NCBI GenBank assembly: GCA_947457565.1 | Contig: CANGWH010000007.1 | Coordinates: 1-49,983 of the forward strand | Origin: Flavobacteriales bacterium | GTDB lineage: Bacteria; Bacteroidota; Bacteroidia; NS11-12g; UBA955 | DNA: 49,983 bases | Direction of reading: 5' to 3' | Shown here: piece by piece, positions 24,008 through 45,526 of the stretch | Numbering within the stretch: the stretch's first letter is position 1 | Layout of the letters: each line of letters starts with the position of its first letter | The notes under the pieces: model-generated | Database searches by the model: none | Told to the model about the DNA's origin: nothing | Seen by the model: only the letters and a program-made list of their open reading frames with translations | Program-made: the position numbers and the translations under genes

Positions 24008-26566
24008 TTATTGACCATGTTGCAATAATAGCTCTGTTACCGACTTGCGTGTTACCGAATGATAACCGGGCGAAGCTCCATAGAATATATACGATACCAT
24101 TTCCAAACCATTATCCTGCGTCTTTAAAATCTGTTCGTATAACGGCAAAACAAACTTCCGTCGTCCTACCGTAAATAAAAATTGCTCCAAGTAAGGAAAT
24201 ACTGCCTTATAATGACATTTCAACCCCAACATATACCACTCAAAAGCAACTTCCGCATTCTTTCTTTCCGATAAATGAAATCGTTCATCGATCGCCTCCA
24301 TATCATTTACCGACAATTGACCCATAGAACGCAATCTCCGCAATAAATGAACCCAATGATGCGCCGTAAAATTGGTTGTATCTAGTTCCAATACATCCCG
24401 CCTGCGTGTAGAACCCCCTCGGTGAAATTCACAGGCCATTACCTCCGGCAGATCAATTTCTTGCTTAGACTCCTTGGCAGATGAAGATTTATTACTTGGT
24501 TCAACACCCTTCTCAATGACACTCTTTCCTGAAGCACTTTGCTCTACAACTTTATTTCTATCCAATCTATCAACCCCACTAGACCAATACCTACTTGCAA
24601 TCCCATCCACCCTCAATAATTCAGCACTCTCAATTTCTGGAAACGCAGCAATACCCTCAAAGGGCAAACCAATTCCGTGAATCCAAAGTTTTTCAATGGC
24701 CGATATAAAATCAGTACAAAACCCAACCTTCAAATTCCAATAGTCTTTCAATTCACCCGCAGGAAAAACCACGGATGGCAACGATAATTGAATAGAATCA
24801 ACGCTGCTTGGAACTGGATTTCGCTCATTTTCGTTGGGAATAAACCCATTACTTAAAATCGAATACGCCACACCCTTCAACAAAAACCGCTTCAATTCAG
24901 TTAAAAAATCTTGCGTTGTTACAACACCGAAGGAATGACGCGAAAAATAAGATCGCAAAAATAAATCCCAATTATCCCGTCCGATGTTTCGTTCAATCAT
25001 CACCAACAAAAACCTGCCCTTCTCGTAAGCAATATCCGTCACACCCTCGTCGGGATCTCGATTATCTAATTCCAAAACCAATCGGGTATCCAATCTACCT
25101 TGAGAATCCTGCTCCATCTCTTCCACCGTCTTAACTAAATCCGCATAGGCAAGATTAACCAATAAATCTGCATACTCTTTCCCAAATACCGATTCCATAA
25201 TTCGGGATTCGAAGTAGTTCGTAAACCCTTCATTTAACCAAAACTCTTCCCAAGTTGCATTCGTTACCAAATTTCCGCTCCAACTATGGGCCAACTCATG
25301 GGCCAATAAGCTTACTAAACTGCCATCACCCGCCACAATTGTAGGGGTTGCAAAGGTCACAACCGGATTTTCCATTCCGCCAAACGGGAAACTCGGCGGC
25401 AAAACCAATACTCGATAAGACCCCCAAACATATTGACCGTATAGCCTCTCTGCAGCTTTCACCAATTCCGGCAAACGCACAAACTCACGCCTGCACTCTT
25501 CCAAATAACCCCGTTCGGCATACACCCCTGTTTCTTTCGTATTTTTATCATCCGTAACCCGGTACGATGAATATCGAAAATCACCTACAGAAATCGCTAA
25601 TAAATAACTCGGTATGGGCCGATTTTGAGCAAATTGATAGCAAATCAACAAATCACCCGAAGTACTAACATCTGCGGGAGTTGTTGTATTGTCAAATGGA
25701 TAATCCAACCAATTACTCACCAACACATTCGTGGCTCGTTTAAAATCTGTATACGCATTCTTCCATGTTAACTTCTTTGGATTAACAAACACATCACTCA
25801 ACAAACCTCGCGCATACTCCACACCCACTTTTTCCGCACTCATCACAGCATTATACGGCGATTTAACAATCACTCGAGCCGAATACGTAAACCGTACACT
25901 GGGTAAATCTTGACAAGGAATCCAAGTCCTAGCTAAAATTGCTTGACTCTGAGAAAACAGAAAAGGTCGTTGCTTATCGTGTGTTTGTTCCGCCGTTAAC
26001 CATTGCAAGGCATCGGCCGAAAGACCCACTTCAAATTCAACAGCCACTCGACTATTCTTGCCAATTAGAATTACTAAACCTTCGCCAAACAAATCCAAAT
26101 TATCCTCTTGTACGCCACTAGTAACTGGCTGAATTTGTTTGATATCATCCGAAAACATCCACATTGGGGAAGCCCCCTTATCACTAACTAACTTTCTAGA
26201 TTTCCTAAAATTAGCAACTGAATTAAACGGCAACTTCTTTTGTCGATTTGAATGGGTATAAACACCAAGTACGTTGATTTTCTTCGCGTCCAAATACAAT
26301 AAGTCGTACTTTGATTTCTTCTGCTCTCTCTTGCCTTTACTAATTTGATAGGACACCAAACCGTGAAGTTTCTTAGTCTCCATATCTATGGTTAAAACCA
26401 AATCCATGGCGGTTAATACCTGTTCACCCGGATTAGACCAACTATGATCCTGGATTCTTGGCGATGGAGCAGTAACTAATCTTGAATTCGCAAAGGAAAA
26501 TTGAGAAACTAGACTAATCAGTCCGATTACAATTTTCAACATACTATTTTTACTAAACTCTCGCAT
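24008..26566 (-). CDS. M1-family zinc aminopeptidase
   Basis: The 852-residue protein starts with an export signal (ATG at 26566; a second ATG at 26542 would also give a good signal peptide). The zinc site is HELAH (His423, Glu424, His427) with the third ligand Glu446 in LNEGFTNYFE, the gluzincin spacing. The exopeptidase motif reads GGMEN just before it. The C-terminal third is long, with a low-complexity Ser/Lys stretch (about residues 680-715) before a helical-repeat-like end, as in leukotriene A4 hydrolase/aminopeptidase B relatives. It trims N-terminal residues from peptides in the periplasm or outside. It overlaps the end of the YfhO-like gene by 14 bases, so the two are probably coupled. 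Confidence 0.9.
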   Translation of the reverse strand: MREFSKNSMLKIVIGLISLVSQFSFANSRLVTAPSPRIQDHSWSNPGEQVLTAMDLVLTIDMETKKLHGLVSYQISKGKREQKKSKYDLLYLDAKKINVLGVYTHSNRQKKLPFNSVANFRKSRKLVSDKGASPMWMFSDDIKQIQPVTSGVQEDNLDLFGEGLVILIGKNSRVAVEFEVGLSADALQWLTAEQTHDKQRPFLFSQSQAILARTWIPCQDLPSVRFTYSARVIVKSPYNAVMSAEKVGVEYARGLLSDVFVNPKKLTWKNAYTDFKRATNVLVSNWLDYPFDNTTTPADVSTSGDLLICYQFAQNRPIPSYLLAISVGDFRYSSYRVTDDKNTKETGVYAERGYLEECRREFVRLPELVKAAERLYGQYVWGSYRVLVLPPSFPFGGMENPVVTFATPTIVAGDGSLVSLLAHELAHSWSGNLVTNATWEEFWLNEGFTNYFESRIMESVFGKEYADLLVNLAYADLVKTVEEMEQDSQGRLDTRLVLELDNRDPDEGVTDIAYEKGRFLLVMIERNIGRDNWDLFLRSYFSRHSFGVVTTQDFLTELKRFLLKGVAYSILSNGFIPNENERNPVPSSVDSIQLSLPSVVFPAGELKDYWNLKVGFCTDFISAIEKLWIHGIGLPFEGIAAFPEIESAELLRVDGIASRYWSSGVDRLDRNKVVEQSASGKSVIEKGVEPSNKSSSAKESKQEIDLPEVMACEFHRGGSTRRRDVLELDTTNFTAHHWVHLLRRLRSMGQLSVNDMEAIDERFHLSERKNAEVAFEWYMLGLKCHYKAVFPYLEQFLFTVGRRKFVLPLYEQILKTQDNGLEMVSYIFYGASPGYHSVTRKSVTELLLQHGQ

Positions 26567-28688
26567 ACAAATTCTTACTATTCAAATAAACGGCAATACA
26601 CAACCAAAACACAATAAAAAAAACAGAAATCCAACACAACAACAACAGATTTACAGTAAAACCCAAAACGGACATTACCGGGTTAAATTCTAGTCTCAAT
26701 CGATATTGATCGGTAGGAATATTGCCATCCAATGCAATTACCAACCCAGAAGGAACCTTCTTACTTTCTATCCCATTTACTCTTGTTACAGATTCATTGT
26801 TCTTACCCGTGAAATCCACGCTAAAATCCATTGAATCAGCAAAAAACTCAGACTGCTCAAAATAATTCAATTCAATATACCGATCCGATTCATCTTTTAC
26901 GCTGGTTGCCCGATACACATGCCAACCCGGTAATCCAGTTTGATTAACAACGAGATAACCATCATTCACTCCACCAACACCAACCTTACTCAAAACACAT
27001 TCAAAAGTATTATTATTCAATAAATCAAAACGGTTTAAAGCCCAATTACCGCCAACCATAGTTACTAATTTCCTCAAATCAGCAGTATTTTGTTTATCGG
27101 CAGAACTATAACCACCGGAATTTAAGGAATCATACCCAATTGAATCCACCCGTACAGAATTTAATAAATCCTGACCTCCAACCAATTTACTGCCAACCTC
27201 ATACTTAGTAAACGAATAAGGATTATACCCATCCTTTGCAAATCGATTCAACAAAATACCCTTGTTATACCACAAAAATCCAAACGGTTCAATATTCGGA
27301 CCATCCAATGGCCGAACCCATACGGAATCTAACTGCTTTTGACCAATAAATTCGCGACTGGGCTGAATCAATTTAGCATTTATCTTTCTTATCTCAGTAG
27401 CATCTACATACTCACCGGCACTAGCTAAAACAGTACTATTCCTTTGATTGAATCCTTGCAAAACAGATTCGCCTGTGATTATTAAACAACCAATAATCAA
27501 CAAACTTTTTGGTGTGTTTTTCTGAATGATCAACATCGCCGAAGCTGCCGCAATCAACCAAAACAAAATTCCCCAAAAACGGATTTGTGCTGGGAACCGA
27601 AAATAATCCATCCCTGGAAGAATTATATTCAAACCGTATTTAAAGGGCAAATCCTCACCCATTGAAAACAACCAACATAACAAACCCGCAACAAACCAAG
27701 GCAGAACAATTGTCCTCTTCTTACTAAAAAACAAAAAGGACAGTAAAAACCAACCTAACAGCACGCTCCAGTATCCGTCAATCATAGATAAGTCCCACAG
27801 CTCGCCATCAGAAATTGATAATTGAACCAACGATTTCGGTAATAGCCACTCCAAGGTTTTTGATAATGGAAATGATCCAAACATCAAATCCTGCGCGGCT
27901 AATCCATTTCCTCTGGTTAAATACGGTAAATATTTAAACAAGGATACCCAAACTGGAATTGAAATAGTTATAAATACTAAAACTGCAAAAAACACGTAAT
28001 TCAACCAAATTTTCAGAGCAGACCAAGAGAAATCACCATGGATTTTCCGATTTATCCAATACAAAATACCCCAAACTAAGAGCACATAGACTTGATTAAC
28101 AAACATGCCCGGATAACCGCCAGTAAATAATAAAACCATCGAAAAACCAAGACCCAAACCACATCGTAACCTAGGAATATAATTGCTAGACCCAAAGTCA
28201 CTCTTGATAAGTCTAATGAAAAAATAAATAGACCAAATAGACCAGGTAGACGCTACAATCCAACCCAAATGCTGCGCATTTCCTACAAAAAATCCATTAA
28301 ACAGAAAAACACCGGAAACAGAGGCCGCCAAGCGCCAATCAATAGATAACCGTACCAGGATAAAATAAAATCCTAAAGCCGCAAACCATACATGAAACAA
28401 GTATTCGTATAGCAAACTCTGTAAATCATAGACACCACCCCAACCAAACAAATAACTGATTGGATACCAAGTCCCTGGGTCAATACATTGGGCGAAACCA
28501 CCTGAAACAAATGGATTCCAAAATGGTAAACTTCCCGAAAAAACACTTCTACATAAAAATAATTTCCAAGGCAAATAAATAGCAGTAGCATCCCATTTCA
28601 TCGCAGATTCACCTACTATTCCTGGCCAATAAACCAAAACCAACAACAGCAATAAGCCCAGTGCCACCCCTGTATGTTTGATTTTCAT
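26553..28688 (-). CDS. YfhO-like polytopic membrane protein
   Basis: The ATG at 28688 (711 residues) is preferred to a TTG three codons upstream. The N-terminal half has many hydrophobic segments typical of GT-C-like membrane proteins, beginning LGLLLLLVLVYWPG. The loop after the first segment reads WDATAIYLPWKLFLCRS and SLPFWNPFVSGG, resembling the YfhO family, in which an acidic residue in the first loop is catalytic. A soluble region of about 280 residues follows, then one last hydrophobic segment. YfhO proteins are putative lipid-linked sugar transferases or glycosylation helpers; the substrate here is unknown. It is the first gene of a three-gene minus-strand group, and its start faces a riboswitch-controlled gene. 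Confidence 0.75.
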   Translation of the reverse strand: MKIKHTGVALGLLLLLVLVYWPGIVGESAMKWDATAIYLPWKLFLCRSVFSGSLPFWNPFVSGGFAQCIDPGTWYPISYLFGWGGVYDLQSLLYEYLFHVWFAALGFYFILVRLSIDWRLAASVSGVFLFNGFFVGNAQHLGWIVASTWSIWSIYFFIRLIKSDFGSSNYIPRLRCGLGLGFSMVLLFTGGYPGMFVNQVYVLLVWGILYWINRKIHGDFSWSALKIWLNYVFFAVLVFITISIPVWVSLFKYLPYLTRGNGLAAQDLMFGSFPLSKTLEWLLPKSLVQLSISDGELWDLSMIDGYWSVLLGWFLLSFLFFSKKRTIVLPWFVAGLLCWLFSMGEDLPFKYGLNIILPGMDYFRFPAQIRFWGILFWLIAAASAMLIIQKNTPKSLLIIGCLIITGESVLQGFNQRNSTVLASAGEYVDATEIRKINAKLIQPSREFIGQKQLDSVWVRPLDGPNIEPFGFLWYNKGILLNRFAKDGYNPYSFTKYEVGSKLVGGQDLLNSVRVDSIGYDSLNSGGYSSADKQNTADLRKLVTMVGGNWALNRFDLLNNNTFECVLSKVGVGGVNDGYLVVNQTGLPGWHVYRATSVKDESDRYIELNYFEQSEFFADSMDFSVDFTGKNNESVTRVNGIESKKVPSGLVIALDGNIPTDQYRLRLEFNPVMSVLGFTVNLLLLCWISVFFIVFWLCIAVYLNSKNLYARV

Positions 28689-28713
28689 AGTGCACAAAGG
28701 TAAAATATATCAT

Positions 28714-28721
28714 TATCTTTG
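28714..28721 (+). promoter_or_regulatory. -7 box of the riboswitch transcript
   Basis: TATCTTTG matches TAnnTTTG and lies just before the P1 strand of the TPP riboswitch, which is where a promoter is needed. No good TTG at -33. Confidence 0.55.
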
Positions 28722-28727
28722 CACCAT

Positions 28728-28801
28728 CATTCGGGGTGCCTCCATAGAGCGCTGAGATTATACCCGCAACTTGATCAGGATAATGCCTGCGAAAGGAAAT
28801 G
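28728..28801 (+). promoter_or_regulatory. TPP (thiamine pyrophosphate) riboswitch aptamer
   Basis: The aptamer (THI element) shows the conserved blocks in order: GGGGTGCC (28733-28740), CTGAGA (28752-28757), ACCC (28762-28765), CTTGATC (28770-28776), GGATAATGCC (28778-28787) and GCGAAAGGA (28789-28797). P1 is formed by CATT (28728-28731) and AATG (28798-28801); CAGG and CCTG (28776-28790) close the pyrophosphate-side stem. CTTGATC differs from the usual CCTGATC by one base. The downstream gene is a TonB receptor, a known THI-element target in Bacteroidota. Confidence 0.95.
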
Positions 28802-28804
28802 AAC

Positions 28805-28850
28805 GTTGACAGACATATGGTCAACCCGAATGAAACCTAAATACATTCGG
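28805..28850 (+). promoter_or_regulatory. Expression platform of the TPP riboswitch
   Basis: Two hairpins follow the aptamer: GTTGAC/GTCAAC (28805-28810, 28820-28825) and CCGAATG/CATTCGG (28826-28832, 28844-28850). The second ends two bases before the ATG at 28853. The same CATTCGG also occurs at 28728-28734 in P1, so CCGAATG could pair with either copy. There is no T-run, so the switch is probably translational. Confidence 0.7.
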
Positions 28851-28852
28851 AA

Positions 28853-31270
28853 ATGAAATCAAAAACAACAAAGAACATTTTAGCGCTATCATTAAGTGCG
28901 TTAAGTTTTTCATTTACTGCTGCACAAACTAACTCAGTTACGGATACTTCATTGCAAGTAGTTGACTTAGTTTCCATGCAAACCATTCTTGTTAATGCAA
29001 TTAATAGTCCAACGGGCATTTCCACACAGCAAATTATTTCACCCTCTCAGTTAAATACTAAATTTAATCTTAAAAACCTTAATACTGGACGAGATATACC
29101 CATTTTACTTCAAGAATTACCGGGAGTTGTGAGCAGTTCTGACGCAGGCAATGGAATAGGATACACAGGAATTCGAGTGCGCGGGGCCGATGCTACTCGT
29201 ACAAATATCACTGTGAACGGTGTTCCAATTAACGATGCTGAAAGTCATGGTACCTTTTGGGTAAACATGCCTGATTTAGCCAGCTCCCTCGGCAACGCTC
29301 AATTAACACGAGGTGTTGGTAGTTCCACCAATGGAGCCGGAGCCTTTGGCGCTACTTTAGCGCTCACAACGCAAGACGAATCCTTGCTTCCAACCCTACA
29401 AATAAATGCAGGAATAGGTAGTTTTAACACCTACCGATACTCCATTAAACTGGGTATTGGTAATTATAATATAGGAAAAAACATCGTTGGTCGATCTGAA
29501 CTTCGCTCCAGTTTAATTCAATCAAACGGCTTCATCGACAGAGCTTCGAGTGATTTATCAAGTTATTTCTTTTCCACTTCCATCATTCCTAAAAACCACA
29601 ACAAATGGGAAATCAAATTAATTGCTTTTGGAGGCCAGGAGAAAACCTACCAAGCTTGGTGGGGGGTACCCATTGAGAAATTCAACTTAGGTGGATCTAA
29701 TCCAACTAACCAAGATTCACAACTATTGGTAGACCACTATAACAGAAATGCAGGTGTTTCGTATCGCAACGCTCAAGACTCACTTAACTTATTTCAAAGC
29801 AACCCCTCTACCTACAATTATTACACTTACCCCAATGAAATAGACAATTATCGACAATTGCACCATCACCTTAATTTCATCAGAAAATTCAATCATTCTA
29901 GTTCATTAACCGGCACAGCCTACCACACCTTCGGAACAGGATACTTCGAGCAATTTAGATACAACGATGCCTTTTCCAAATACAACATTTCTCCAATACG
30001 TACTGCAGGAGACACCAACGTAACCGTACTTATTACTCAATCCGATTTAGTACGTCAACGTTGGTTGCGAAATAACCTCGTTGGATTAAACCTCTATTTT
30101 ATTCATAAAAAACAAAACTATTCTTATGTAATTGGATCGGGCATCAACCAATATATTGGTGACCACTTCGGCAGAGTTACACAAATCCTAGCATTATCCC
30201 AATCTACCCTCAGAAATCCCCATGAGTATTATAATTCCATAGGAAAGAAATTCGATGCCAATGTCTTTTCAAAATTCAATTATCTACTAACCCACCGCAC
30301 CAATTTAACATTAGATGCCCAGGTTAGAAAAGTCAATCATACGGGAAAAGGCACAGATAATGACCTAAGAAACATCGATTTTACTGGAGATTTCCTCTTT
30401 TTTAATCCTAAAATTTTCTTAGAACATAGCTTCCTTAGAAAAAACAGTATAACCGCGGCTTGGATGCGAACCAATAAAGAACCTTCTCGATCCGATTTTA
30501 CTGATCATCCCAACGCAGATATACCCAAACCCGAACAACTAAACAATACGGAAATCACATTCAGACATAATGGAAAATTACTATTGGAAATTACTGCTTA
30601 CAATATGCAATATAAAAACCAGCTAGTGCTTACAGGTGCTGTTAACGATGTAGGAACACCACTTAGGAAAAATGTAGAAAACAGCTACCGACGGGGAATA
30701 GAAATAGATGCTCGATATGCCATTAATCAAAAATCACACAGCGCATTGGGGAGTATTGTATTGCTCGGAAATATCGCGTTAAGCCGAAACACAATTATCA
30801 ATGCACCCGTATCGTGGTTAGATTATGCCACCTATACTACTTGGGATACAGTTCTTAGCGGCGCTCCAATCGCGTTTTCACCCAATACTGTAGCAAGCAT
30901 TGGTTTCAACTGGATCTCTTCCTCCAACAATACTACAATTAGTTGGCGTACAAAATATGTTTCTCAGCAATTCTTAGACAATACCGGCTCAACAAACAGA
31001 AGTCTTCCAGCATATACCTTTTCAGAATTAACCCTATCCAAAACCATTGTTTTTGAGAAAAACCCTACCGAAAATAAAAAAGGATTATTTAACAAGTACT
31101 CAGAATTAAAAATTAATCTTCAATTCAATAATATCTTCAATAAACGTTACGCAAGTAACGCCTACACCTACGGATATTTGTACGGCAGCAGAGACATCAT
31201 CCAAGAAGTATTTGTATTCCCCCAAGCACCTGCAAATGTGCTGTTAAACCTCCAGTATAAAATGTACTAA
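28853..31270 (+). CDS. TonB-dependent receptor under TPP riboswitch control, likely thiamine or precursor uptake
   Basis: The 805 residues include a signal peptide (ending near TAAQ), a plug domain (IPILLQELPGVVSS, YTGIRVRGADATRTNIT, NGVPINDAESHG) and a 22-strand-type beta-barrel ending LLNLQYKMY. Unlike the receptor at 4895-7309, it has no CarboxypepD_reg domain and no DUF4249 partner. The TPP riboswitch immediately upstream strongly implies that its ligand is thiamine, a thiamine phosphate or a breakdown product. Related genes are known as thiamine-regulated outer-membrane receptors. No inner-membrane pnuT-like transporter or thi gene is nearby, so uptake must be completed elsewhere. It converges on the M4 peptidase gene. 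Confidence 0.93.
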   Translation: MKSKTTKNILALSLSALSFSFTAAQTNSVTDTSLQVVDLVSMQTILVNAINSPTGISTQQIISPSQLNTKFNLKNLNTGRDIPILLQELPGVVSSSDAGNGIGYTGIRVRGADATRTNITVNGVPINDAESHGTFWVNMPDLASSLGNAQLTRGVGSSTNGAGAFGATLALTTQDESLLPTLQINAGIGSFNTYRYSIKLGIGNYNIGKNIVGRSELRSSLIQSNGFIDRASSDLSSYFFSTSIIPKNHNKWEIKLIAFGGQEKTYQAWWGVPIEKFNLGGSNPTNQDSQLLVDHYNRNAGVSYRNAQDSLNLFQSNPSTYNYYTYPNEIDNYRQLHHHLNFIRKFNHSSSLTGTAYHTFGTGYFEQFRYNDAFSKYNISPIRTAGDTNVTVLITQSDLVRQRWLRNNLVGLNLYFIHKKQNYSYVIGSGINQYIGDHFGRVTQILALSQSTLRNPHEYYNSIGKKFDANVFSKFNYLLTHRTNLTLDAQVRKVNHTGKGTDNDLRNIDFTGDFLFFNPKIFLEHSFLRKNSITAAWMRTNKEPSRSDFTDHPNADIPKPEQLNNTEITFRHNGKLLLEITAYNMQYKNQLVLTGAVNDVGTPLRKNVENSYRRGIEIDARYAINQKSHSALGSIVLLGNIALSRNTIINAPVSWLDYATYTTWDTVLSGAPIAFSPNTVASIGFNWISSSNNTTISWRTKYVSQQFLDNTGSTNRSLPAYTFSELTLSKTIVFEKNPTENKKGLFNKYSELKINLQFNNIFNKRYASNAYTYGYLYGSRDIIQEVFVFPQAPANVLLNLQYKMY

Positions 31271-31383: not shown

Positions 31384-34300
31384 TTAGTCGCGAATCACTT
31401 GAATAAAGCCGCGGTATTCCAATTCGGTAACACGGTTTTTCAAATAATAGAAATAAACGCCGGGTAATAACTCTTTGCCAGTTGCATCTTCCGCTTTCCA
31501 ATCATTTAAATAATTGGATGTTCTATAAACCAAGGCGCCCGGTCTATCGTAAATTTCAATATCAAATTGCTCCAAATTTGGAACTTCGATCAAATCCCAA
31601 ACATCATTCTCACCATCATTATTAGGTGTTATTAGATTAGGAATTCTAACCAATGGTGGGTCCACAACCGAAACTAATACAGTATCACGCCATAAACAGC
31701 TGGCCGAATCCAGTGCCGTAACTGTATATTGTTGTGTTTTCACAGGACGTACATAGTAGAAACGATTAGTATCAACATCCACAGCGGCTACAGTAGGCAT
31801 CCATTTCCATTGAATTCCTTTGTTCATCCATAATTTAGCTTTGCCTCCTCGATAAATAATAGTATCGCTCCGAGCCATTAATTCTTCGCCTTCATACCTA
31901 ACCGAAACTCGAATTGAATCCTTACAACCAAAGGCATCTGTGCTAATTAATGTATATTGTCCGGTATCTAGATTGTTAATTGCTGTATCCAATGTATTCA
32001 AACCATCGTTCCAACGATGCATTAACGGCTTCCTTCCTCCGCTTACACGAACACGCACAAAACCGTTCTTTTCATATCGACATAACAACGTATCTGACGC
32101 CACCAATTTATGATTTATTTGCAACCCAGAAACCACAACCGTATCTAAAACAACCACGTCTGATGAACAACCATCCTTTACTTCATACTTCAGTTCCGTA
32201 TCCACAGATGGCGCAATTTTATAAACCCAACTTGGAGGTGTACTTCCATTCACTGTCCAAACTCTACTGCTAATATTACCCCCAGAAACCAATAAAGAAA
32301 TTTGTGCCGAATCGCCAAGGCACAAGGTATCCCTATCCAAAACCATCGTCCCAGCTAACGCAGGATATCGGTAAACAGTAAAATCTGTAGTATCATTCGG
32401 TATGCTGCAACCATCTTCTACCCAGACTCTATAGTTAGTAGAGCCTGTATCGGGGTTCAAAACTACATTTGTTCCAGAAATCGTAGGATCCGACCAATAA
32501 ACTTTTCGTGAAGCGTCCACACCACCGGTATCTCGTAAAAGTATGGTATACGTTTGACCAAAACACAAGACGCTATCTGCCACCGCACTCAAATACAATC
32601 TAGGCAATACAGTTACCTTTATAGAATCTTCCCCCTCCAACGAACAACCTTCACCGCCCCAAACATAATAGGTTGTGGTTTTCGTAGGACTTACAGTAAT
32701 TCCTGCGGTAAACTCACCCGAACTCCAACGCGTGTAAAAACCCGGACCCCCATGAACGCGATCCCCACCTACTACATCACCTACTATCGAAACCGAAGTA
32801 CCATAACATATGGTAGTATCGTTTGATTTTTCTATGCCGATAGCTTCGTAGGTCATGATTCTCGTACTATCTTCTGCATCCATAGCACTACAACCATCGT
32901 CTAGCCGAATTTTATAGTTCAACGTATCGGCTTTAGGGAAATCAACCAACAAGGTATCTACACCCAAAATACCGTTCCAATAAAACTTATATCCCAATGG
33001 TTCTCCACCCAAATATTTGATGCGCAAAACCGCTTTCTGTCCAACACAAACCTGGGTATCTGCCGGCAATATCTTAGCCACTAGCTTAGGTTTAATACTT
33101 ACCAATTGATTATCCGTATTAGAAACTGCATTGCAGCCATCGTCTACAAAAACCGAATAATTTCTGATGCTATCAGGCAATGATAATCGTTGGGTAGTAG
33201 AATCACCCACAACGCCTTTCCCCGTCCAACGATACTTATATGTACCCTGTCTACCACCCGTTGCCGTTGCTTTTAATGTAATTGGATAACCATAACACAG
33301 CACTGTATCGTTGGTTAACGCCACCTGCAAAGGCTTAAACACCCCTTTATATTCCACCTTAAATCCTTTGCCATCTACGTATGGATCCGAATATTGCCTA
33401 AAAATCAAACGGTCTGATTTTATTGCATACCAATTCCCAGAATTTGGTAATACATTACCAGTAAATTTACCAATCTTATTTGCCTGACTTACCGAATTTT
33501 TGAAGATTACCAACGAATCGTAATTAAGCTCATAATCAAGCACTTTAAATCGAAACCGTATAGTATCAGCCCCCGGTAATTTTAACTGAAATTCTCTAAT
33601 TGAATTCAACCCATAATTCCCCTCCCCACCATCATCATAAACAAACCCCTTACAACCAATAGCACTATCTAATAACGAAGATTTAGGCAACAAGAAAGCA
33701 TTACATATATCGTATGTGCTATCTATTTTTACATATAGAACCTTGGCTAAACTATCCTTATTATTCTTAAAACAACTTTGAACCACCAAGGAAACCGTAA
33801 ACTTACCGTAAGTGGAATATGCATACGAAGGAAACGTACTTGTAGATGTACCCCCATCCCCAAAATACCATTTACTGCTTTTGAAATTTTCACTTAAATT
33901 CATAAAATTCAAGTTCATTCCAATTTTACACGCATGGGTATCGCCGGTAAAAGCCGCTTTCACATAACCACTATCATACTTGGCGCCAACGCCACAAACC
34001 CACCATGCATTGGTAGTAGCAATTACTGCATCCGAGCACTGACCATATAAATCGGCCGCACTGATAATCGAAAAAATTCTAGCATCCGCAAATTGAGAAC
34101 TTGCTGTCAAATACACCGATAAAGTGCGATATGCTATCGCTCCAGCATTCGTTATACCTTGGCCTGAAATATTATAATTATCCCCTTTCTCGTTCGTGCC
34201 AACCCCACCCACACTAAGTATATAATACCAATAATTTAACACCCCACTATTCCAATGAACCCCGCCATTATCTAATGGACCCGAATACCATAAATTACCC

Positions 34301-35628
34301 TTGTAATACTTTGGGTGATTGAATGCGTTAGGATTAGACATATCCCGAATACCTGCACCCGCGGTAATATCTTCACCTATTTTCCAACTGAATTGGGTAG
34401 GTCTCGACCATTCCTCAATACTCTGACCAAAAATATCACTAAAACCCTCGTTTAAAGCCCCACTTTCGTAGGAATAGGTCAAATTAGCCGTGTATCTCGT
34501 TACAGCATGGGCAATCTCATGGCCGCAAACATCCAATGCCGCCAAAGGTTCTTTAAATGTAGCTCCACTGCCATCCCCGTAAGTCATTACACTACCGTCC
34601 CAAAAAGCATTATCGTATTTAACGCCGTAGTGCACAAAACTGTAAATCTTTGCCCCGTTGTTATCAAAACTATTTCTTGAATGCTCACTAAAAAAATAAT
34701 CGTAGGTGCGCTCAGCCCCCCAATGAGCATCCGTTGCAACCTCATCTTTGGCGGCATTTACATTATTCCAATAATTGTCGTTATCCGTAAAATCAACAGC
34801 ACTACCATAGACAGTACCGGTTTTCATATTGTATGTTTCTATACCTTTCCCCCTAACCCCTTCGCGCAATCGAAAACTAGTGGGCGATAAACTATCTACA
34901 TCGATGGTATGAGTACCACTAAACTTAGTAACCGCAGTCCCCTTAACATCAATATGACAAATTAACTCATTAGTAGCAACCAGTTCCCCCGATTCCGCAT
35001 CAATATAAATGGATTTACCAAATAATGTATCCGAAGCAAAAACATCAAAACGATAACACAACCTAAAAATAGACGATAATTGAAGATTCTTAGGACAATA
35101 TTCTAAACTTCCAACAGGATAATACGAAGTGTCTTTAACACCGGTAACCAATCTCAACTGTTCATTATTTCCCTCGTCCTGCCAATAATAACGCTTTGCT
35201 GGAAACATCGTTAATGCAATATCCCTAGCTGAATTTTTATCGATTTTAACTACTCCCAACAGCCGAGACTCAGGAACAAAATCACCGTTAATCATTTTTA
35301 TCAACCCCGATTTCTCATGCACTATCCCTACCGATAAATTCACCGGAACCCCACCGAAATAATGACGAACTCTATAATGCCTCTCACCTAATTCATCCTC
35401 TAAAATATTGAAAACTTTCCAAGTAGATTGATTGGTATATGAACCTAATTTTGAAACCACCGACTCCCAATTTTCAACCGTAGGCTGCGTCAATTTGTCT
35501 TTATAAAACAAGATTGAAGGAGTACCTAGATCCCTATGGATCGTATTGGTAAACTGACTAAATACAGGAGTTGTATTAATCAAAATAAACAGAAAGACTA
35601 ATACTATTGTATATTTCCGATTTCTCAC
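31384..35628 (-). CDS. Large secreted M4 (thermolysin-like) metallopeptidase with T9SS sorting domain
   Basis: The 1414-residue protein has a signal peptide (about 1-25), an FTP/PepSY-like propeptide (about 30-230) and an M4 domain with HEIAH (His370, Glu371, His374) and the third zinc ligand Glu394, exactly thermolysin spacing. DNGGVHWNSG supplies the later active-site histidine. A PKD domain (WYFGDGGTSTSTFPSYAY), a CUB-like domain (YDDGGEGNYGLN...DYELNYDSLVIF) and about six diverged Ig-like repeats, each with a GG...W segment, follow. The gliding-associated CHU_C domain ends the protein (ITPNNDGENDVWDL...). This marks it as T9SS cargo bound to the cell surface or released. It likely degrades external proteins. 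Confidence 0.93.
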   Translation of the reverse strand: MRNRKYTIVLVFLFILINTTPVFSQFTNTIHRDLGTPSILFYKDKLTQPTVENWESVVSKLGSYTNQSTWKVFNILEDELGERHYRVRHYFGGVPVNLSVGIVHEKSGLIKMINGDFVPESRLLGVVKIDKNSARDIALTMFPAKRYYWQDEGNNEQLRLVTGVKDTSYYPVGSLEYCPKNLQLSSIFRLCYRFDVFASDTLFGKSIYIDAESGELVATNELICHIDVKGTAVTKFSGTHTIDVDSLSPTSFRLREGVRGKGIETYNMKTGTVYGSAVDFTDNDNYWNNVNAAKDEVATDAHWGAERTYDYFFSEHSRNSFDNNGAKIYSFVHYGVKYDNAFWDGSVMTYGDGSGATFKEPLAALDVCGHEIAHAVTRYTANLTYSYESGALNEGFSDIFGQSIEEWSRPTQFSWKIGEDITAGAGIRDMSNPNAFNHPKYYKGNLWYSGPLDNGGVHWNSGVLNYWYYILSVGGVGTNEKGDNYNISGQGITNAGAIAYRTLSVYLTASSQFADARIFSIISAADLYGQCSDAVIATTNAWWVCGVGAKYDSGYVKAAFTGDTHACKIGMNLNFMNLSENFKSSKWYFGDGGTSTSTFPSYAYSTYGKFTVSLVVQSCFKNNKDSLAKVLYVKIDSTYDICNAFLLPKSSLLDSAIGCKGFVYDDGGEGNYGLNSIREFQLKLPGADTIRFRFKVLDYELNYDSLVIFKNSVSQANKIGKFTGNVLPNSGNWYAIKSDRLIFRQYSDPYVDGKGFKVEYKGVFKPLQVALTNDTVLCYGYPITLKATATGGRQGTYKYRWTGKGVVGDSTTQRLSLPDSIRNYSVFVDDGCNAVSNTDNQLVSIKPKLVAKILPADTQVCVGQKAVLRIKYLGGEPLGYKFYWNGILGVDTLLVDFPKADTLNYKIRLDDGCSAMDAEDSTRIMTYEAIGIEKSNDTTICYGTSVSIVGDVVGGDRVHGGPGFYTRWSSGEFTAGITVSPTKTTTYYVWGGEGCSLEGEDSIKVTVLPRLYLSAVADSVLCFGQTYTILLRDTGGVDASRKVYWSDPTISGTNVVLNPDTGSTNYRVWVEDGCSIPNDTTDFTVYRYPALAGTMVLDRDTLCLGDSAQISLLVSGGNISSRVWTVNGSTPPSWVYKIAPSVDTELKYEVKDGCSSDVVVLDTVVVSGLQINHKLVASDTLLCRYEKNGFVRVRVSGGRKPLMHRWNDGLNTLDTAINNLDTGQYTLISTDAFGCKDSIRVSVRYEGEELMARSDTIIYRGGKAKLWMNKGIQWKWMPTVAAVDVDTNRFYYVRPVKTQQYTVTALDSASCLWRDTVLVSVVDPPLVRIPNLITPNNDGENDVWDLIEVPNLEQFDIEIYDRPGALVYRTSNYLNDWKAEDATGKELLPGVYFYYLKNRVTELEYRGFIQVIRD

Positions 35629-45137: not shown

Positions 45138-45506
45138 GGGGTTGACTGGAATCGACGGGTTGATTGATTGCAGTGTAAGCATGTGGTGCTTTGGAAGCTG
45201 GCACTCAAATCTCAACTTTCAAATTTTTAAGAGGCGAAAATAACTACGCCATGGCTGCCTAATCGGAAGGATTAGACACTTGCCATCTGTTTCGGAACAG
45301 TTTACTTGGGCCCTGTTCCATCCGAAGCAGTCGACACGCCCGGGTATCTCCCCCACCATCAGCGCAAGGGTAGATTATGAAGCTGGATAAGGAACTTTGT
45401 TGGCCAGGGACGAGCCGGCCTGTTCCCGAAAACAATCGATCCCTAAACATGTAGAAAGCGCTAGCACTCGCTTCTCCGGACGGGAGTTCGAACCTCCCCA
45501 ACTCCA
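45138..45506 (+). ncRNA. ssrA: Transfer-messenger RNA (tmRNA)
   Basis: The 5' end GGGGTTGACTGGAATCGACG and the 3' end CGGGAGTTCGAACCTCCC plus CAACTCC form the tRNA-like domain: GGGGTTG pairs with CAACTCC (one G-T pair), leaving A45506 as the discriminator. CCA is not encoded. The tag frame is GGC-GAA-AAT-AAC-TAC-GCC-ATG-GCT-GCC-TAA (45233-45262), encoding GENNYAMAA. It releases stalled ribosomes with SmpB and marks the peptide for degradation. The exact resume codon is inferred from the family's tag pattern. Confidence 0.96.
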
Positions 45507-45526
45507 CTTTTGACAACAGTCTAGGC

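Follow-up and report, generated by a model that had tools for sequence, protein, structure and literature searches.

The window analysed here, a stretch of 49,983 nucleotides from a Flavobacteriales bacterium, contains on its forward strand, at 28853-31270, an open reading frame for a TonB-dependent outer-membrane receptor of 805 amino acids, which is the gene regulated in the model developed below. The receptor has a Plug domain (Pfam PF07715, E 1.1e-8) and, as judged by eye, a signal peptide. Comparison of the receptor with solved structures gave no match, and its assignment as a B12 receptor was rejected, the match to the NCBIfam TonB-B12 model being far below the cut-off. The gene downstream lies on the opposite strand, so that the receptor gene appears to stand alone. 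The reverse strand of the window also encodes an M1 family aminopeptidase with a leukotriene A4 hydrolase C-terminal domain (24008-26566), a large membrane protein that is transcribed divergently from the riboswitch and had no Pfam or NCBIfam match at 0.001 (26553-28697), and a 1414-aa metallopeptidase of the thermolysin type (M4), which carries PKD and CUB domains along with a CHU_C signal for type IX secretion (31384-35628). A tmRNA gene (100.7 bits) is found at 45138-45509 on the forward strand.

Upstream of the receptor gene, and on the same strand, a TPP riboswitch aptamer (RF00059) was detected by cmscan at 28722-28814, with a score of 61.1 bits (E 1.2e-9) that exceeds the gathering threshold of 54.3 in a comparison that takes both sequence and structure into account. 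It is the sole TPP match in the genome, and we regard it as a predicted TPP sensor. According to the Rfam alignment, the 3' strand of its P1 stem (AATGA, 28798-28802) pairs with TCATT at 28727-28731. The aptamer is directly preceded by TATCTTTG (28714-28721), which matches what we take to be the Bacteroidota-type -7 promoter element, with the consensus TAnnTTTG. Since this element adjoins the aptamer, and since 42 of 46 related leaders carry a similar motif directly 5' of theirs, transcription probably starts at the foot of P1, with the first nucleotide predicted at about 28724-28728.

The genomic context fits a role in thiamine uptake. No match to ThiC or to ThiE/TenI (TMP-TENI) was found in the genome, which is 93% complete, so that missing sequence is a caveat, and the genome carries one PnuT-family (PnuT-like) transporter and one thiamine pyrophosphokinase (TPK). 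Together with the TPP aptamer, these findings suggest thiamine uptake by a predicted auxotroph, and they make thiamine the most likely substrate of the receptor. A TPP riboswitch 5' of a TonB-dependent thiamine receptor is also known from the same phylum, in the case of Bacteroides OMthi (BT2390) (PMC5613172). Bacteroides TPP riboswitches precede both OMthi and pnuT-tnr3 (PMC5613172). Unlike in the pnuT-tnr3 arrangement, the receptor gene in the window is alone, without pnuT-tnr3.

The region between the 5' end of the aptamer and the receptor gene contains three related strands. The heptamer CATTCGG occurs at 28728-28734 and again at 28844-28850, where it ends 2 nt before the ATG at 28853, and its complement CCGAATG lies between the two copies at 28826-28832. 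A linker hairpin, GTTGAC-(9 nt)-GTCAAC, with arms at 28805-28810 and 28820-28825, separates the aptamer from the downstream strands. The initial annotation had placed all of these elements exactly. It had assigned the first CATTCGG to the 5' strand of P1, which is correct for CATT, but the Rfam alignment shows that CGG already starts P2. In full, the 5' strand is TCATTCGGG (28727-28735), with a P1 part at 28727-28731 and a P2 part, CGG(G), at 28732-28735, and it is complementary over 9 bp to CCCGAATGA at 28825-28833, here called the anti-P1 strand. As CATTCGG straddles P1 and P2, the alternative pairing would open both. The complementarity between the anti-P1 strand and the ATG-side copy, here called the sequestering strand, extends over 7 bp. 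When the 50-nt linker was shuffled with its dinucleotides kept (20,000 trials), a 7-nt complement to the P1 region alone arose in 7% of the shuffled linkers. A complement together with a second copy ending at most 6 nt from the ATG was seen in 0.05% of them at 6 nt, and in none of the 20,000 at 7 nt.

The two pairings had been proposed to exclude each other, and this is borne out, because both use the anti-P1 strand at 28825-28833 and are in close competition in folding. At equilibrium, the free window RNA with a 3' end at 28883 forms the anti-P1 pairing with a probability of 0.41, against 0.59 for the sequestering hairpin, and when more of the coding sequence is included, the sequestering hairpin reaches 1.00. 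Stepwise folding gives a different picture for shorter transcripts. As long as the 3' end lies at 28834-28846, the anti-P1 pairing has a probability of 1.00, and the sequestering hairpin rises afterwards. Omission of the aptamer, which serves as a stand-in for the bound state, lets the sequestering hairpin form with a probability of 0.99-1.00. The earlier suggestion that ligand-stabilised P1 hides the start is thus supported as far as the formation of the hairpin is concerned, but the start-side hairpin spans positions -3 to -9 and leaves the ATG itself uncovered. The converse suggestion, that in the absence of ligand the anti-P1 pairing frees the start, fits the calculated folding of the short transcripts, but not the equilibrium, which favours the OFF hairpin by about 0.6 to 0.4. 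Because the OFF hairpin is favoured even without ligand, the ON state probably depends on the order of folding during transcription, and this order is likely to resolve what is not a clean switch at equilibrium.

A comparison of start-region openness in the relatives is consistent with switching. The mean of 46 leaders was 0.69 in the free RNA and 0.50 with the aptamer insulated, whereas 50 sets of shuffled linkers gave a mean free-minus-insulated difference of -0.06 and a maximum of +0.009. In the window alone, openness of the -12 to +3 region was 0.40 in the free and 0.51 in the insulated RNA, opposite to the mean of the 46 leaders. This measure does not favour the switch in the window, since pairing between P1 and the start codon is possible when the RNA is free.

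TPP matches are present in 49 of 70 genomes of the same family; leaders of the sister family have other sequences and were left outside the comparison. Leaders with P1 of the CATT type have a complementary strand 3' of the aptamer, and in nearly all of them a third strand, on the ATG side, pairs with it. The pairings persist although the sequences differ, with CCGAATG/CATTCGG in the window and ACTCGAA/TTCGAGT in the other member of the genus (L009). In other genera, the ATG-side pairing is GGATGC/GCATCC (L002-L005, one genus) or GTCTCGG/CCGAGAC (L007, another genus). A predicted hairpin of at least 5 bp that uses the anti-P1 strand is present in 32 of the 35 CATT-type leaders, and nearly all of these ATG-side hairpins end 0-3 nt before the ATG. 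Two leaders of one genus (L024 and L056) have kept the anti-P1 strand, but not the same hairpin. At the place of the linker hairpin, 30 of 35 related leaders have a hairpin of at least 4 bp with other sequences, which could possibly serve as a spacer or timer. The more distant leaders with P1 of the GTTTTGG type (L065-L068 and L070) also keep a complementary anti-P1 strand. No hairpin beside the ATG is evident in these five leaders, which perhaps represent another platform design.

Related leaders share ancestry, and the window alone is no clean switch in equilibrium folding, so that the repeats could in principle be an inherited coincidence without switching function. We consider this explanation extremely improbable in view of the base that precedes CATTCGG. 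This position was held out, in the sense that it was not used in finding the anti-P1 strand. In 31 of 33 leaders it is Watson-Crick complementary to the anti-P1 base opposite, compared with a mean of 12.7 and a maximum of 24 in 20,000 permutations that were uncorrected for ancestry. Pairing of the same base with its P1 counterpart is seen in just 13 of the 33 leaders, which argues that the alternative pairing is conserved in its own right. To account for ancestry, a receptor tree with 31 rows was built. On this tree, the held-out pair takes the forms T-A, G-C and A-T, all three of them within one genus, and changes 7 times when all states, including two unpaired forms, are counted. Common descent alone is insufficient to explain the covariation, because there have been several independent changes, and the changes compensate each other on several branches. 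Moreover, the start-side hairpin occurs in two registers among the relatives, and the overlap with the anti-P1 strand is kept in both. The initial annotation had named an alignment of the leader in related species as one check, and among the relatives the three strands do covary.

The anti-P1 strand contains an ATG of its own (28830-28832), which opens a short reading frame (MKPKYIRK, 28830-28856, forward strand) with a stop that overlaps the receptor start (ATGA). Such an upstream frame could act by translational coupling or as a decoy start, and the same overlap is found in the window, in L009 and in a few further relatives. However, in the leaders examined the frame is not kept, being either in frame with the gene, running past its start or stopping immediately, and control by the upstream frame was rejected on this ground. 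The ATG is also forced by the complementarity to CAT in P1, and it is paired in both states. We thus regard this explanation as very improbable.

The level at which TPP riboswitches act in Bacteroidetes was described as uncertain in a 2017 paper on B. thetaiotaomicron (PMC5613172), and the title of a 2019 preprint (reference 47 in PMC7366714) has Bacteroides TPP riboswitches controlling transcription or translation. In the window, a scan of the leader identified no intrinsic terminator, and no U-run comes after the hairpin at 28826-28850. A transcription-terminating riboswitch was rejected for these reasons. They also weigh against a switch that acts mainly at the mRNA level, either through Rho termination or decay of the untranslated message, or through direct termination in the leader. 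Such effects have precedents, as E. coli thiM, thiC and tbpA also reduce mRNA via Rho or related effects (PMC11487190), and a weak terminator-like site is located inside the receptor gene, at 28883-28899. In B. thetaiotaomicron, on the other hand, the riboswitch-linked transport transcripts barely respond to thiamine (PMC5613172). On balance, action mainly on the mRNA appears unlikely.

The reading as a translational off-switch, which the initial annotation had advanced, is supported by the covariation and by the ATG-side hairpins of the relatives. We are confident, from sequence comparison and modelling, that the leader is a translational TPP off-switch of a TonB-dependent receptor, most likely one for thiamine. 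We infer that TPP is bound, and likewise in which direction and at what point of transcription control is exerted; TPP would turn the gene off, because the two pairings are exclusive. When TPP is scarce, the anti-P1 strand (28825-28833) would be transcribed before its second partner and would invade P1 and P2 (28727-28735). The start-side copy (28844-28850) would then be left free, and ribosomes could initiate at 28853. When TPP is bound, P1 and P2 would be held closed, and the anti-P1 strand would pair with the start-side copy instead. The resulting 7-bp hairpin, ending 2 nt before the ATG, would block initiation. There is no Shine-Dalgarno sequence before the ATG (ACATTCGGAA-ATG). Bacteroidota do without Shine-Dalgarno sequences, and what governs their initiation is the structure of the RNA close to the start (PMC6847099). 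A hairpin over positions -3 to -9 is a plausible block for this reason.

The arrangement resembles the TPP riboswitches of E. coli thiM and tbpA. In these translational off-switches, the strand that follows the aptamer has two possible partners, the 5' strand of P1 in the ON state and the start region in the OFF state (PMC11487190). For tbpA, the ON state has been described as containing an anti-P1 stem, and the OFF state as sequestering the Shine-Dalgarno sequence (PMC11487190). The window likewise has one strand for which the 5' strand of P1 and the initiation region are alternative partners. However, the OFF state would hide the initiation region itself, a strand that adjoins the ATG, and not a Shine-Dalgarno sequence as in thiM and tbpA. 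We therefore describe the element as working like thiM/tbpA, without classing it as the same platform. Two further differences from these E. coli riboswitches are that the anti-P1 strand in the window also takes part of P2, and that the strand to be hidden repeats the P1/P2 strand letter for letter.

The kind of switch is already known, and what the leaders add is comparative evidence, drawn from sequence, that points to pairing exchange in a family without Shine-Dalgarno sequences. A bolder generalisation, which is conceivable but falls short of probable, is that the TPP switch of this family is under kinetic control, free of Shine-Dalgarno sequences, with an early anti-P1 pairing, a later start-side hairpin and the linker hairpin as a timer for the sensing of TPP. 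For the organism itself, the data suggest a dependence on scavenged thiamine. More broadly, the leader would represent a compact and evolutionarily supported case of a vitamin switch acting on translation in a phylum where Shine-Dalgarno sequences are not used. With its 160 nt, it also lends itself to bench work in which every pairing is disrupted and then re-established.
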